Origin: Yimella sp. cx-51
Lineage (GTDB): Bacteria; Actinomycetota; Actinomycetes; Actinomycetales; Dermatophilaceae
Direction: 5' to 3'
Assembly: GCF_017654605.1 (NCBI RefSeq)
Contig: NZ_CP072113.1
Location: forward strand, 2,666,001-2,730,000
Length of the DNA: 64,000 nt
Shown here: piece after piece, positions 5,495 through 48,057 of the stretch
Layout of the letters: each line of letters starts with the position of its first letter
How positions within the stretch are numbered: position 1 is the first letter of the stretch
The notes under the pieces: generated by a model
The model's database searches: none
What the model was told of the DNA's origin: nothing
The model's input: only the letters and a program-made list of their open reading frames with translations
Position numbers and translations under genes: made by a program

Positions 5495-6280
5495 ATGAAG
5501 AAGCAGACTCGCAACATCGCACTGTCGGTCTCGGCACTCGCCGTCGTCGCAGGAGGAGCCGTCGGCGTCGGCGCCAGCCAGAGTGACGCCGCACCCGGCA
5601 AGGTCAACACCGCCTCCTCACCACTGACCGTCCGCTCCGGCCCTGGCACCCACTACTCCTCCGTCGGCAAGCTCGCCAAGGGCACCAAGGTCGACATCAA
5701 GTGCCAGACCCGCGGCCCGGCCGTCAAGGGCACCTACGGCACCTCCACCTGGTGGAACAAGATCGACAACGGCCGCTGGGTCTCCGACGCCTACATCTAC
5801 ACCGGCTCCGACGGACGCGTGGCTCCGCTGTGTGACAAGCCGAAGCCGCCGAGCAACGGGATGCCCGATGCACCGCGCACCAACCCGCACCCCGGCCAGA
5901 TGACTCGCGCACCGAAGCTGACCGCTCGCGCCAAGTTCGTCCGCGCCGAGATGCAGAAGGCCTTCCCCGGCATCCGCTGCGACGCCAGCGCCTACCGCCC
6001 GGGCCAGGTGAGCGACCACAACAGCGGTAACGCTCTCGACTGCTTCCCCGGCAAGTTCGGTGTCTACGCCTCCGGTGCAGACCTGCGCGAGGGCAACACC
6101 GCTGCTGCCTGGCTGAAGAAGTACGCCGGCAAGCTCGATGTCCAGTACGTCATCTGGCAGAACAAGATCTGGAACATCGACCGGGCCAGCGAGGGATGGC
6201 GCTACCAGGGCAAGTCGGGCGCCACCTACGGCCACTACGACCACCTCCACATCTCCGTCAAGGCTCCGCAGCAGCACTGA
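5495..6280 (+). CDS. Secreted SH3b-domain protein with ARB_07466-like C-terminal domain
   Basis: 261 residues. A signal peptide covers residues 1 to about 33 (MKKQTRNIALSVSALAVVAGG, with cleavage probably near SDA-AP). A bacterial SH3 domain follows at 36-113 (LTVRSGPGTHYSSVGKLAKGT) and probably binds the wall. The C-terminal part, about 135-261, has SDHNSGNALDCFP and YGHYDHLHISV motifs, the pattern of the ARB_07466/peptidase-like domain, whose D-H-D-H layout resembles metal sites of LAS-type peptidases. Activity is not proven by sequence. The start is ATG at 5495, after AAGGAGAAG. The first 113 residues are identical to those of the next gene. Confidence 0.8.
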   Translation: MKKQTRNIALSVSALAVVAGGAVGVGASQSDAAPGKVNTASSPLTVRSGPGTHYSSVGKLAKGTKVDIKCQTRGPAVKGTYGTSTWWNKIDNGRWVSDAYIYTGSDGRVAPLCDKPKPPSNGMPDAPRTNPHPGQMTRAPKLTARAKFVRAEMQKAFPGIRCDASAYRPGQVSDHNSGNALDCFPGKFGVYASGADLREGNTAAAWLKKYAGKLDVQYVIWQNKIWNIDRASEGWRYQGKSGATYGHYDHLHISVKAPQQH

Positions 6281-6653
6281 GCGGCGATCCACCGATTCGA
6301 AAGGCAGGAACAGTCATGAAGAAGCAGACTCGCAACATCGCACTGTCGGTCTCGGCACTCGCCGTCGTCGCCGGAGGAGCCGTCGGCGTCGGCGCCAGCC
6401 AAAGTGACGCCGCACCCGGCAAGGTCAACACCGCCTCCTCACCACTGACCGTCCGCTCCGGCCCCGGCACCCACTACTCCTCCGTCGGCAAGCTCGCCAA
6501 GGGCACCAAGGTCGACATCAAGTGCCAGACCCGCGGCCCGGCCGTCAAGGGCACCTACGGCACCTCCACCTGGTGGAACAAGATCGACAACGGCCGCTGG
6601 GTCTCCGACGCCTACATCTACACCGGCTCCGACGGACGCGTCGCACCACTGTG
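5495..6653 (+). repeat. Duplicated 338-bp 5' module (5495-5832 and 6316-6653)
   Basis: The first 338 bp of two adjacent genes are nearly identical: only a handful of silent changes are visible and the first 113 amino acids are the same. The downstream domains and the intergenic DNA are unrelated. The copies lie 821 bp apart in direct orientation. Confidence 0.95.
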
Positions 6654-7137
6654 CGGTGACGGCAAACCGTCCAATCCGGGCAACGCCACGCCGGTGAAGG
6701 GCGCCTTCCAGATGCCCTTCCCGTGTGGCCAGGTCTGGAGCAGTTGGACCCGCAGCAACCACAGCCCGCGCTACGCCACCGATCTGAACCGTCCTGGGGA
6801 TCTGGGCGACAAAGTGATCACGTCCAAGCCGGGCAAGGTCATCACCTCGCACTACTCCACAACGTCTGGATACGGGCACTACGTCGTGGTCGACCACGGT
6901 GGCGGCTGGACCACGCTGTACGCCCACCTGCAGACACGATCGGTCAAGGTCGGGGACCGCGTCGGTTGGGGATCCAAGATCGGCACGGTCGGAGGCACGA
7001 GCGTCCGGGGTGCACTGAGTCCGCACCTGCACTTCGAGCAGAAGCTGAACGGCAAGAACCAGCGCATCCGGTTCAACGGCAAGCTCGTGCCGCAGGACGA
7101 GGTGCAACACAACATGAAGAGCCGCAACAGCTGCTGA
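6316..7137 (+). CDS. Secreted SH3b and M23 peptidase, probable cell-wall endopeptidase
   Basis: 273 residues. Signal peptide and SH3b domain are identical to those of the preceding protein. Residues about 130-260 form an M23 (LytM/beta-lytic type) zinc peptidase: candidate ligands are His149 and Asp156 (HSPRYATDLN), His204 (LYAHL) and His239 in the HLHFE motif. The longer H-to-D spacing fits the beta-lytic M23A pattern rather than HxxxD. The expected role is cleavage of peptidoglycan cross-links outside the membrane. The start at 6316 follows GGCAGGAA. It lies 35 bp after the first paralogue, probably in the same transcript. Confidence 0.88.
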   Translation: MKKQTRNIALSVSALAVVAGGAVGVGASQSDAAPGKVNTASSPLTVRSGPGTHYSSVGKLAKGTKVDIKCQTRGPAVKGTYGTSTWWNKIDNGRWVSDAYIYTGSDGRVAPLCGDGKPSNPGNATPVKGAFQMPFPCGQVWSSWTRSNHSPRYATDLNRPGDLGDKVITSKPGKVITSHYSTTSGYGHYVVVDHGGGWTTLYAHLQTRSVKVGDRVGWGSKIGTVGGTSVRGALSPHLHFEQKLNGKNQRIRFNGKLVPQDEVQHNMKSRNSC

Positions 7138-36508: not shown

Positions 36509-36529
36509 GTTGAGTGCATTCCGCTCAAC
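36509..36529. promoter_or_regulatory. HAIR element (HspR operator) upstream of clpB
   Basis: GTTGAGT (36509-36515), 7-bp spacer, GCTCAAC (36523-36529). The known HAIR consensus is CTTGAGT-N7-ACTCAAG; twelve of fourteen arm positions fit or are symmetric substitutes. It lies 80-100 bp before the clpB start. Confidence 0.78.
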
Positions 36530-36580: not shown

Positions 36581-36856
36581 TCAGCGCCCAAAGTCGCTGG
36601 CGTCCTCGTCGAGCCAGCCGTCCCGGTCAGCGGTGATGCCCTCGAAGCGTTCGACCAAGGCCCGCGCCACGGCGGATGTCGGGTCGTCGATGGTGTCGAG
36701 GCGCACGTACACCGCCCAGTCGTGGTCTTCGGAGTCGTCCTCGCCGGCGAGCGCCTCGCGCACCACGCGCACCTCGTCGAACTCCTCCTCGCGTAGTTCA
36801 TCGGCAACTTCTTCGGCGTCATCGCGCTCGGCGAACACCAACAAGTACTCGGTCAC
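36581..36856 (-). CDS. Small acidic protein, possibly RraB-like
   Basis: 91 residues from GTG at 36856. Begins TEYLLVFAERDDAEEVADEL and continues with acidic helices (REEEFDEVRVV, EDDSEDHDWAVYVRLDTID). The ADEL ... WAVYV layout recalls RNase E inhibitor RraB, but similarity is weak and unverified. CAGGGT lies 7 bp upstream, an imperfect -10. It stands alone between the clpB promoter and the divergent TerD genes. Confidence 0.6.
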   Translation of the reverse strand: MTEYLLVFAERDDAEEVADELREEEFDEVRVVREALAGEDDSEDHDWAVYVRLDTIDDPTSAVARALVERFEGITADRDGWLDEDASDFGR

Positions 36857-36981
36857 GGTGCCAACCCTGCCATGTCGGCACACTCCTGACAGCCGACTCG
36901 CCGCCCGAGGGGGTGGGCTCCGTATTCTGGCCGCACGGCAGTCGTGGGAGGAGCGACTGAACCCCCGACGAGGAGACCCCG

Positions 36982-38406
36982 TTGAACGCTGTGAACCTGA
37001 CCCGCGGCCAGAACGCGCCCTTGCCCACGCGGAAGTTGGTCGCCCAGGTGCAGGTGTCTGCTGCGGCCGACCTGTCCGCACTGCTGCTCACCGCCGACGG
37101 GAAGGTGCGCGGTGACCAGGACATCGTCTTCTTCAACCAACAGCAGGGTCCTGGTGTGCGCTGCGTGCCGCCGTCCGGCGGGTCGCCGTGGAAGCTGGAG
37201 CTCGACCTCGACCAGGTGCCCACCCAGATCGAGAAGGTGCGGGTGGTGACCTCGTTGGACGAGGCCGGTCGCACCTTCGGCTCACTCCCGGGTGCGCCGG
37301 TCGCGCAGGTGACCGATGCCGGCGGTGCGCCGGTTGCGACCGCTGAACTGTCAGGCCTGTCGACGGAGTCGATCGTCATCGCATTGGAGTTCTACCGCCG
37401 CGGCGGCGACTGGAAGATTCGTTCGGTCGGCCAGGGCTACAGCGGCGGCCTCGCCGACCTGCTGCGCGACCACGGTGTCGATGTCGCCGACGAACCTGCA
37501 TCCGCTGCTCCCGCGCAGCCCGCGGCGCCTCCGGTTCAACCGCCCGCCCCTCCGGCAACGCCAGCACAGCAGCAGCGTCCGCCGCAGCATGATCCCTACT
37601 CGAACGCGCCTTATCCGGGTGCGCCCACCCAGCCGCCGGCGCAGCACAACGCACCGACGATGGCCACCCCGGTGCAGGATCCGTACGCGACAGCACCCCC
37701 GCCGCCCGCCCAACCCAGCGCTGCGGCAAGCGCCCCTCCGGCGCACGATCCCTACGCGGCAGCCGCCCCACAGCACACCCCTGCTCCGGCCGCACCGCAG
37801 TCCAACGAGCCGGCGCTGACCCGCGGACGTCCGGTGAATCTTTCCAAGGGCCAATCGGTCAACCTGCGCAAGGACGACGGCCAGTCGCTGACCGGAGTCC
37901 GTATGGGGCTGGGCTGGGACCCCGTCAGCCGGGGCGGACTGCTCTCACGTCGCACTGCCGAGATCGACCTGGACGCCTCCGCGATCATGCTCGCCGGATC
38001 CGACATCGTCGATGTCGTCTTCTACAACCGTCTGGCATCGGCCGACGGCTCCGTGCAACACAGCGGCGACAACCGCACCGGCGAAGGTGACGGCGATGAC
38101 GAGTCGGTGCGCATCGACCTGTCACGGGTGCCGGTGCACGTCACCTCGATCGTGCTGGTGGTCACCTCGTACGAAGGGCACACCTTCCAGATGGTGCAGA
38201 ACGCGTTCTGCCGGTTGATCGACGAGGCCGGCCGCGGTGGCGAACTGGTGCGCTATCAACTCGCCGGGGGCGCAGCCTCGACCGGCATGGCCATGGCCGC
38301 GTTGCGCCGCACTCCGGGTGGCTGGCGGATGCAGGCGATCGGGGAGCCGCTGCAGGCCAGGACGCCGCACGAGACCTTCGGCCAGATGCCCCGTTTCGCC
38401 CAATGA
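36982..38406 (+). CDS. Protein with two TerD domains joined by a Pro-rich linker
   Basis: 474 residues from TTG at 36982 with GAGGAG upstream. TerD domain 1 at about 1-172 (NLTRGQNAPLP, LSALLLTADGKVRGDQDIVFFNQ, IALEFYRRGGDWKIRSVGQGYSGGLADLL). Linker 175-280 rich in Pro, Ala, Gln and PYA/PYS repeats. TerD domain 2 at about 285-474 (VNLSKGQSVNLRK, ASAIMLAGSDIVDVVFYNR, GGWRMQAIGEPLQ). TerD domains bind calcium; the acidic loops DADLSAL-type and DLDA are partly kept. Belongs to the tellurite-resistance-type stress proteins. Overlaps the next gene by 4 bp. Confidence 0.9.
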   Translation: MNAVNLTRGQNAPLPTRKLVAQVQVSAAADLSALLLTADGKVRGDQDIVFFNQQQGPGVRCVPPSGGSPWKLELDLDQVPTQIEKVRVVTSLDEAGRTFGSLPGAPVAQVTDAGGAPVATAELSGLSTESIVIALEFYRRGGDWKIRSVGQGYSGGLADLLRDHGVDVADEPASAAPAQPAAPPVQPPAPPATPAQQQRPPQHDPYSNAPYPGAPTQPPAQHNAPTMATPVQDPYATAPPPPAQPSAAASAPPAHDPYAAAAPQHTPAPAAPQSNEPALTRGRPVNLSKGQSVNLRKDDGQSLTGVRMGLGWDPVSRGGLLSRRTAEIDLDASAIMLAGSDIVDVVFYNRLASADGSVQHSGDNRTGEGDGDDESVRIDLSRVPVHVTSIVLVVTSYEGHTFQMVQNAFCRLIDEAGRGGELVRYQLAGGAASTGMAMAALRRTPGGWRMQAIGEPLQARTPHETFGQMPRFAQ

Positions 38407-40076
38407 CCGACCTGATCGCCGGTCAGAACGCCCCGTGGTCGGGCGCGACCGCACGCGTGCGCCTTCGCGGGGTGGCTGACCTGTCGGCGCTGCTGCTCGG
38501 CGCCGACGGCCGGGTGCGGGACGAGGGCGATCTGGTCTTCTACAACGCTCCGGGCGTTGGCTGCCTCACCTGGCAAGCAGTGGACGCACAAACCCAGGAA
38601 CTGAATCTGGTTCTGCCACAGATAGATCCGCAGATCATGATCGTTCGCTGCATCGCCAGCGTCGACCCCGACCAGCCGGCTCTCACCGACGGTGCGATTT
38701 CGATCGAGATCGACGACGCGCACAGCTACCGCCCGGCCCGGCTCAACGGCGAACGTGCGCTGATCACGGTGGAGTTCTACCGCCGCGGCGACGCCTGGAA
38801 GGTCCGCGCCGTCGGCCAGGGCTGGGTGGAGGGCCTGGCCGCGGCGCTGGTCGCGCACGGCATCGAGGTGGAGCAGGAGTCCGCTCCCCCGCCCTCGCCG
38901 TTCCCGGTCACCACGGCACCTGCGCCTCAACAGTCGCCGTCGGGCGCGCCGGGGTGGCACGACAGCGCACCCACGATGCCCGGCCCCGACGACGACACCG
39001 TCGCCGGCGCACTGCGCGCGATGAACAGCATCCGATCAGATGTCAGCCAGGCCTGCCGGGCGTACACCGCGGCGCTCGACTACGCCGAGAGCAAGATGCT
39101 TGCTGCACAGGAGAACTCACGCACCCTCGGCGGTCAGGCCGAAGCTGCCCTCGCGCAGGTCGAGGCCGAGCACAACGACATCGTGATGCGAGCGAGCGAC
39201 CGGTTCGATCAGGAGTGCGCCGGCCTGCGAGAAGAACTCGTGGCCGAGGAACTCTCCATGCCGCTGCCGCTGGCCCGCCTCGACTCCTTCGACTGGGAGT
39301 CGGTGCTCGCCGCACGAGTGGGCCACACCCCCGGCGCCCCGATCGACACCCACGACGAGCGCGCATCACTGTTCCGCCTCGGCGGGCTCTACCCGCCGGC
39401 CAACGACAGCCTCCGCGTGCCCATGCCGCACCGCTGGGCCGGACGTCCGTTGATGTGGGCCGACGGTGCCGACCGGCCACCCACTGCCATCGCCTGGACC
39501 CGCGGCATCCTGGCCCGATCGATGGCGCTCACCCGGCCGGGCGCGCTCGATGTGCAGGTGGTCGATCTGGACGGTTCGATCACGGCGCGATGGGGACGCC
39601 TCGCGCCCGCCGTCGACGCCGACATCACGATGATGCGCACTCCGGCAGAGCTGGCCGGTTTCATCGATGCCTTCGTGCACCAGTGCGAGCTGGCGAAGAT
39701 GGCTTTCGAGTCACGCATCCCCGAAGCCCTGGACGACGTTCGCGACGGTGCGCGCCATCTGGTGGTGCTCGGTCACTTCCCACACGGCTACGACCAGCGG
39801 TCGATCCAGCGGCTGGCTGATGCCTTGCCGTGGGCCGTCCTGCTCGACGTCCAGGTCATCGTCGTGACCGACGAGCAGACGGTGCTGTCGACGCTCGACG
39901 GCGACGAGAACGACCCGCTGGTGCGGCTGGTGCGGCAGTCGCTGTGGCTGCAGGACGGCACCGAGCCCCAGTTGGTCGACGGCGCCGGCGTGCCGTGGTG
40001 CTTCGACTCCGAGCTGACCACCAGCGCGATGCGCACCATCGACCGCATCCTCAGCGAGGGCCATCGAGCGCGCTGA
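38403..40076 (+). CDS. TerD domain fused to a coiled coil and an FtsK-like domain without Walker A
   Basis: 557 residues. TerD domain at 1-165 (LIAGQNAPWSG, LSALLLGADGRVRDEGDLVFYN, VEFYRRGDAWKVRAVGQGWVEGL). Pro-rich linker to 200, then helices 200-290 with coiled-coil character (AYTAALDYAESKMLAAQENSR). Residues 310-557 resemble the FtsK/HerA-like module of ter stress proteins: FRLGGLYPP, a strand DVQVVDLDG in the Walker B place, and HLVVLGHFPHGY. No GxxxxGK(S/T) is present, and the active second ATPase module common in relatives is absent. The FtsK relation is my reading of motif order and needs a profile search. Confidence 0.65.
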   Translation: MTDLIAGQNAPWSGATARVRLRGVADLSALLLGADGRVRDEGDLVFYNAPGVGCLTWQAVDAQTQELNLVLPQIDPQIMIVRCIASVDPDQPALTDGAISIEIDDAHSYRPARLNGERALITVEFYRRGDAWKVRAVGQGWVEGLAAALVAHGIEVEQESAPPPSPFPVTTAPAPQQSPSGAPGWHDSAPTMPGPDDDTVAGALRAMNSIRSDVSQACRAYTAALDYAESKMLAAQENSRTLGGQAEAALAQVEAEHNDIVMRASDRFDQECAGLREELVAEELSMPLPLARLDSFDWESVLAARVGHTPGAPIDTHDERASLFRLGGLYPPANDSLRVPMPHRWAGRPLMWADGADRPPTAIAWTRGILARSMALTRPGALDVQVVDLDGSITARWGRLAPAVDADITMMRTPAELAGFIDAFVHQCELAKMAFESRIPEALDDVRDGARHLVVLGHFPHGYDQRSIQRLADALPWAVLLDVQVIVVTDEQTVLSTLDGDENDPLVRLVRQSLWLQDGTEPQLVDGAGVPWCFDSELTTSAMRTIDRILSEGHRAR

Positions 40077-47905: not shown

Positions 47906-48036
47906 GGTGGGGTTCTCCTTCGTTGAGGACTATGTGATGTCTGTTGCTCGTTGCGCCTGTGGCACATCGAGCACGCCCTGACTGCGTCCGACTCAACTCC
48001 TCCGGGTCGCAACCCGTCAAACCGAGGCTCAGCAAT

Positions 48037-48057
48037 CTTGCGTCTATCTCACTCAAC
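48037..48057. promoter_or_regulatory. HAIR element (HspR operator) upstream of dnaK
   Basis: CTTGCGT (48037-48043), 7-bp spacer, ACTCAAC (48051-48057); consensus CTTGAGT-N7-ACTCAAG. Twelve of fourteen arm bases match. It lies in the 342-bp gap between the divergent dnaK and lipoprotein genes. Confidence 0.82.

Follow-up and report, generated by a model that had tools for sequence, protein, structure and literature searches.

Ter proteins, related members of which are reportedly covered by the 2012 survey of Anantharaman, are widespread, and their function is unsettled. The arrangement closest to the one considered here is the Streptomyces locus uvrB–terD–X–terC, in which X denotes the homolog of gene 2 below; judged by gene order, with the numbering extrapolated, this locus is probably SCO1965–SCO1963 of S. 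coelicolor. SCO1965 appears in proteomes, and SCO1963 is a binding target of sigmaE under ethanol stress. Klebsiella TerD binds Ca2+, as cited in PMC8779313, which also quotes the list of side-chain ligand residues, and PMC10550928 and PMC12096827 describe a role for Bacillus TerC proteins in metalation at the secretion translocon. In type VII secretion, ATPases 2 and 3 of EccC are present in the PDB with a bound signal peptide (4n1a). With these systems we compared a gene pair in a 64,000-nucleotide stretch of Yimella sp. cx-51 DNA (hereafter the window; contig NZ_CP072113.1, positions 2,666,001 to 2,730,000 of the forward strand).

Both genes of the pair lie on the plus strand. Gene 1 (36982..38406) encodes a double-TerD protein of 474 residues and is preceded by a GAGGAG ribosome-binding site (36970..36975, plus strand); when it is aligned with its ortholog from a second genome of the genus (L055), the TTG start at 36982 falls opposite an ATG start. 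Gene 2 (38403..40076) encodes 557 residues laid out as a TerD domain, a linker, a coiled coil and a pseudo-FtsK domain. The two genes share 4 bp as an ATGA start-stop overlap (38403..38406, plus strand), as the initial annotation had noted, and in L055 both genes are joined by the same overlap and again stand beside clpB. Because third-position GC is 82% in gene 1 and 86% in gene 2, and orthologs with the same overlap exist in the second genome of the genus, both open reading frames are taken to be coding. Identity to the L055 orthologs is 82% for the second half of gene 1 and 50–53% over the length of gene 2 (53% over residues 2–556). A sigma-70-type promoter was sought for the pair and not found. 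The TerD family (PF02342, curated cut-off 25.3 bits) is matched above cut-off by both proteins, in two stretches of gene 1 (244.6 bits, E = 6.6e-73) and in gene 2 (49.7 bits, E = 4.1e-13). The C-terminal 400 residues of gene 2 have no Pfam match, and its C-terminus is left unnamed by Pfam, NCBIfam and PADLOC.

Of the three TerD domains in the pair, only the second one of gene 1 retains the residues of the Ca2+ site (DLD and GDN..GDDE). This C-terminal domain (37831..38391, plus strand) is canonical, the whole protein matching PDB entry 2kxt at E = 5.7e-39, and it shares 52% identity with the TerD that adjoins uvrB in Streptomyces. Its acidic loop, GDNRTGEGDGDDE (38065..38103, plus strand), keeps the side-chain Ca2+ ligands of K. 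pneumoniae TerD when aligned with the ligand list quoted in PMC8779313. The site is lost in the N-terminal TerD domain of gene 1 (36994..37491, plus strand) and in the TerD domain of gene 2 (38403..38882, plus strand), two degenerate domains that are 38–39% identical to each other and both lack the acidic GDN..GDDE loop. In the single TerD of Streptomyces, the GDN..GDDE loop carries a two-residue insertion. The two TerD domains of gene 1 are separated by a Pro/Ala/Gln-rich linker of ~109 residues (37489..37815, plus strand; 31% Pro) with HDPY-type repeats, and the TerD domain of gene 2 is followed by a Pro-rich linker of 38 residues (38883..38996, plus strand; 32% Pro). The linkers of both proteins had been described as long and Pro-rich; the composition holds for both, but the length holds for gene 1 only, since the linker of gene 2 spans just ~38 residues. 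Similar motifs occur in the linkers of the two proteins, namely NAPTMATPVQDPY (window 37639–37680) and DSAPTMPGPDDD (window 38940–38996).

Beyond its linker, gene 2 continues with a long helix, taken to be a coiled coil (residues 205–285; 39015..39257, plus strand; H2-82 of the AlphaFold model, block pLDDT ~79–94) and ends with a predicted FtsK/EccC-type ATPase domain (39369..40073, plus strand). The AlphaFold model of residues 204–557 has a pLDDT of 72.5 and a pTM of 0.65, and its top ten PDB matches in Foldseek are EccC, EssC, EccCb1 and FtsK (E = 4e-6 to 8e-4), with 6j18 labelled only as an ATPase. A separately modelled Streptomyces relative (pLDDT 78.6) gave EssC and EccC as its seven best PDB matches (best E = 9e-7). 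The TM-scores to the PDB matches are moderate (0.34–0.47 over the query), so the structural matches indicate the class of fold and not its detail. When compared by hhalign, the family profile aligned with the Walker-A-less module 1 of tandem FtsK-like proteins at E = 3.3e-18 and with their Walker-A-bearing module 2 at only E = 0.012; phmmer of the PDB returned TerD structures only, plus a weak FMN reductase match.

On the strength of the predicted models and the profile alignments, we assign the C-terminus of gene 2 to the FtsK/EccC-type fold, as a homolog of the inactive first module of tandem FtsK-like ATPases. This agrees with the initial annotation, which had read here a Walker-A-less FtsK/HerA module, and the structure prediction it had proposed as a check did return similarity to such folds, with EccC, EssC and FtsK structures on top. 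The Walker A motif GxxxxGK[ST] is missing from the window protein, where its approximate expected place is occupied by GRPLMWADGADRPPT (39441..39485, plus strand), and from 79/79 relatives checked. The acidic residue of the Walker-B-like strand, HLVVLGHFPHG (39756..39788, plus strand), is lost as well; the Streptomyces counterpart reads LIVNDFPHG. The active ATPase module that usually follows is absent, again as first described: gene 2 ends at 557 residues and the next gene encodes a GDSL hydrolase. Identity of the C-terminal domain between lineages is low (~25–29%).

Within the genus, the pair adjoins clpB in two of three genomes. An apparent absence from the third was dropped, as its contig breaks off inside clpB, at the very point where the pair would be expected, and sequence on the far side of the break resumes only past that place. 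The family's other genera yielded no homolog, and the pair is missing from the six clpB loci read in them; a sample of 149 genomes of the order contained the C-terminal domain only in the window's genome, and a sample of 296 genomes of the phylum gave 12 matches, one of them a tandem protein. A single-sequence scan of genome contigs with the gene 2 C-terminus gave no match, but an alignment-based search of a named genome collection succeeded, yielding 529 candidate stretches that encode relatives. The 80 loci kept from these (Streptomyces plus one Kitasatospora) have the gene order uvrB–terD–X–terC, with terD present in 71/80, terC in 76/80 and uvrB in 69/80 and the exceptions mostly at contig ends; the nine loci without the upstream single TerD start at a contig end. 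In two genomes of another family (L081 and L085), a double TerD is followed by X, at a distance of 17 bp in L085, beside three AIM24-type genes (one confirmed by Pfam, the others read from sequence). Further genes near the L081 unit, for StiP/PRTase_2/PELOTA, C-C_Bond_Lyase, TerD and TerC, place it with a full ter biosynthetic cluster. The neighbourhood survey suggested at the outset finds the two-gene unit conserved in several groups of actinobacteria, most of the sampled Streptomyces among them. A stand-alone pseudoATPase is how this protein family normally occurs and does not reflect a loss peculiar to the window.

Matches in other families of the order were rejected as examples of the gene 2 architecture, being TerD–vWA-like or TerD–nuclease-like where read, and a weak match in L071/L086, which adjoins an FtsZ-like gene, was treated as chance. 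Four loci from another family of the order (L022, L023, L025 and L028) encode TerD fused to a putative vWA (TerY-like) domain.

Upstream of the pair in the window are clpB and a small RraB-like gene, both on the minus strand, and downstream are genes for a GDSL hydrolase and a TPP enzyme, followed by hspR, dnaJ, grpE and dnaK on the minus strand. The RraB-like gene (window 36581–36856; PF06877 at E = 8.5e-4, below cut-off) keeps its place close to clpB in several of the family's genomes. Elsewhere in the window, adjacent genes at 5495–6280 and 6316–7137 encode proteins with a common first 40 residues, probably the product of a recent tandem duplication. Outside the pair, the window holds no further TerD, TerC or AIM24 gene, and the sole TelA gene seen lies at 3.12 Mb, in line with the earlier remark that terC and telA are not nearby; with TerC and TelA at 3.07–3.13 Mb, the pair lacks the adjacent terC and telA of a canonical ter operon. 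The accompanying suggestion of a reduced ter system is unsupported, because a full ter cluster stands at 3.109–3.127 Mb of this genome, ~0.4 Mb from the pair (TerD genes, TerC/DUF475, two PRTase_3, HAD, TelA and three AIM24 genes), and because the unit adjoins terC or a full ter cluster in relatives. A second TerC gene of the genome is at 3.073 Mb. The genome carries other TerD fusions, including a Ser/Thr kinase with a C-terminal TerD domain (L013:7299–8756, ~2.759 Mb of the genome; PF00069 and PF02342 by Pfam) and a 672-residue protein joining TerD to a PD-(D/E)XK-nuclease-like region (L010:7532–9550, ~1.1095 Mb), in which the nuclease was read by eye and Pfam finds only TerD. A protein similar to the latter fusion is encoded in L031.

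The reading we prefer, with a probability of about 45%, is that the pair is a conserved actinobacterial Ter sub-module, composed of a Ca2+-competent TerD protein and a TerD-pseudoATPase that acts as a non-motor scaffold. Of the two TerD domains that gene 1 contributes, one has an intact Ca2+ site and the other is degenerate; gene 2 adds a further degenerate TerD domain, related to the first and borne on a coiled coil, along with an FtsK/EccC-type domain that would be catalytically dead. The two proteins may form a complex in which the linkers and the related degenerate TerD domains make the contacts; the dead ATPase domain could be a non-motor docking scaffold, as the signal-peptide-binding ATPase domains of EccC suggest by analogy. 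Ca2+ binding by the intact TerD domain might switch this complex, which would serve the TerC/TerD membrane metal-stress machinery, a link to TerC and the membrane that is suggested by gene neighbourhood in relatives. Since the unit is conserved across several actinobacterial groups, the pair probably serves as a functional docking or sensing complex and is unlikely to be a degraded relic. Counting against the sub-module reading, the pair is not near terC here and sits in the dnaK–clpB chaperone region, the C-terminal domain is weakly conserved, and its model is of moderate confidence (pLDDT 72.5, TM-scores of 0.34–0.44 to its matches over the query). It is also conceivable, though doubtful, that the motor-less FtsK/EccC domain is a peptide- or protein-docking adaptor coupling Ca2+-loaded TerD to TerC and the export machinery; if so, the Ter system would gain a Ca2+-gated membrane scaffold across Streptomyces and relatives.

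The position of the pair between clpB and the dnaK–grpE–dnaJ–hspR operon raises the alternative that it belongs to the chaperone or heat-shock response. The clpB/dnaK-region neighbourhood recurs in L055, and in another genome (L203, G324) a tandem FtsK-like gene adjoins chaperone genes in the order DnaK–DnaJ/TPR–tandem FtsK-like. However, HAIR-like (HspR) sites lie before dnaK and clpB (window 47977–47997, 48037–48057 and 36509–36529; 3 found vs 1.3 expected) and a search before the pair found none, a comparison with weak statistics; several genomes of the family have the chaperone region without the pair, and relatives have the pair located elsewhere, leaving a chaperone role improbable. Gene 2 could instead be a dominant-negative or adaptor partner of an active FtsK-family motor, its dead domain joining rings or stacks of FtsK or FHA/EccC-like ATPases and regulating DNA or protein transport under stress. 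Candidate motors are at hand in this genome, which encodes a housekeeping FtsK and two FHA/EccC-like proteins, and the fold is nearest that of EccC/EssC; yet by sequence the dead domain is closer to module 1 of tandem proteins than to EccC, and the loci read showed neither an FtsK nor an EccC gene next to the unit. The initial annotation had recommended looking for an active FtsK partner elsewhere in the genome, and this search found no tandem-type partner, only the FtsK and FHA/EccC-like ATPases just named. Nor did a tandem-type partner turn up in the eight tested genomes with the stand-alone module, where the best score against the active-module profile was 1e-34, vs 1e-146 or better in three genomes with tandem proteins (the sample is small, and the profile was built from those three). 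We therefore regard a motor partnership as unlikely.

Homology to module 1 of the tandem proteins and the loss of both Walker A and Walker B motifs would also suit a non-functional remnant of a tandem FtsK-like ATPase minus its active half. This explanation is disfavoured as highly improbable, given that the open frame, the overlap, the partner and the gene order are retained across several actinobacterial groups and that the genome collection holds 529 candidate stretches encoding relatives. Ter genes are linked to phage resistance in PMC8779313 and PMC8123226, and an anti-phage or other conflict system using Ter proteins was considered on that account; the pair has no PADLOC match, however, and its Streptomyces location is conserved beside uvrB and not in variable islands, so that we hold such a role to be quite improbable. 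We return to the sub-module reading, in which the unit is a compact conserved pair combining one intact and two degenerate TerD domains with a dead motor domain outside Pfam models. Its occurrence in laboratory-tractable Streptomyces makes the roles of TerD and the pseudoATPase in metal or envelope stress directly testable.

Like the Streptomyces uvrB–terD–X–terC locus, the window has a TerD protein followed co-directionally by a TerD–coiled coil–pseudo-FtsK protein. The upstream TerD of Streptomyces is a single-domain protein of 192 residues, whereas that of the window is a double TerD; TerC comes directly after X in Streptomyces but is not near the window pair, and the linker of X is longer than that of gene 2. 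Tandem FtsK-like ATPases (L202, L203 and L204) have an inactive module 1 that aligns with the C-terminal domain of gene 2, but they have a second FtsK module and no TerD domain, and no TerD gene was found near them within the stretches examined; the tandem protein of L189 has no second Walker A either. EccC and EssC of type VII secretion are the best structural matches of this domain, yet gene 2 has a single dead domain, with neither FHA nor repeated ATPase domains, and the pair has ClpB, RraB-like, GDSL and TPP enzyme genes as neighbours, with no WXG100 genes nearby. The Ca2+-site residues of Klebsiella TerD (2kxt/2kxv) survive in the second TerD domain of gene 1, whereas the acidic loop is gone from both remaining TerD domains of the pair. 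TerD domains and FtsK-type pseudoATPases are known kinds of part, and the stand-alone TerD–coiled coil–pseudo-FtsK protein with a TerD partner is a conserved variant unnamed in Pfam, NCBIfam and PADLOC.
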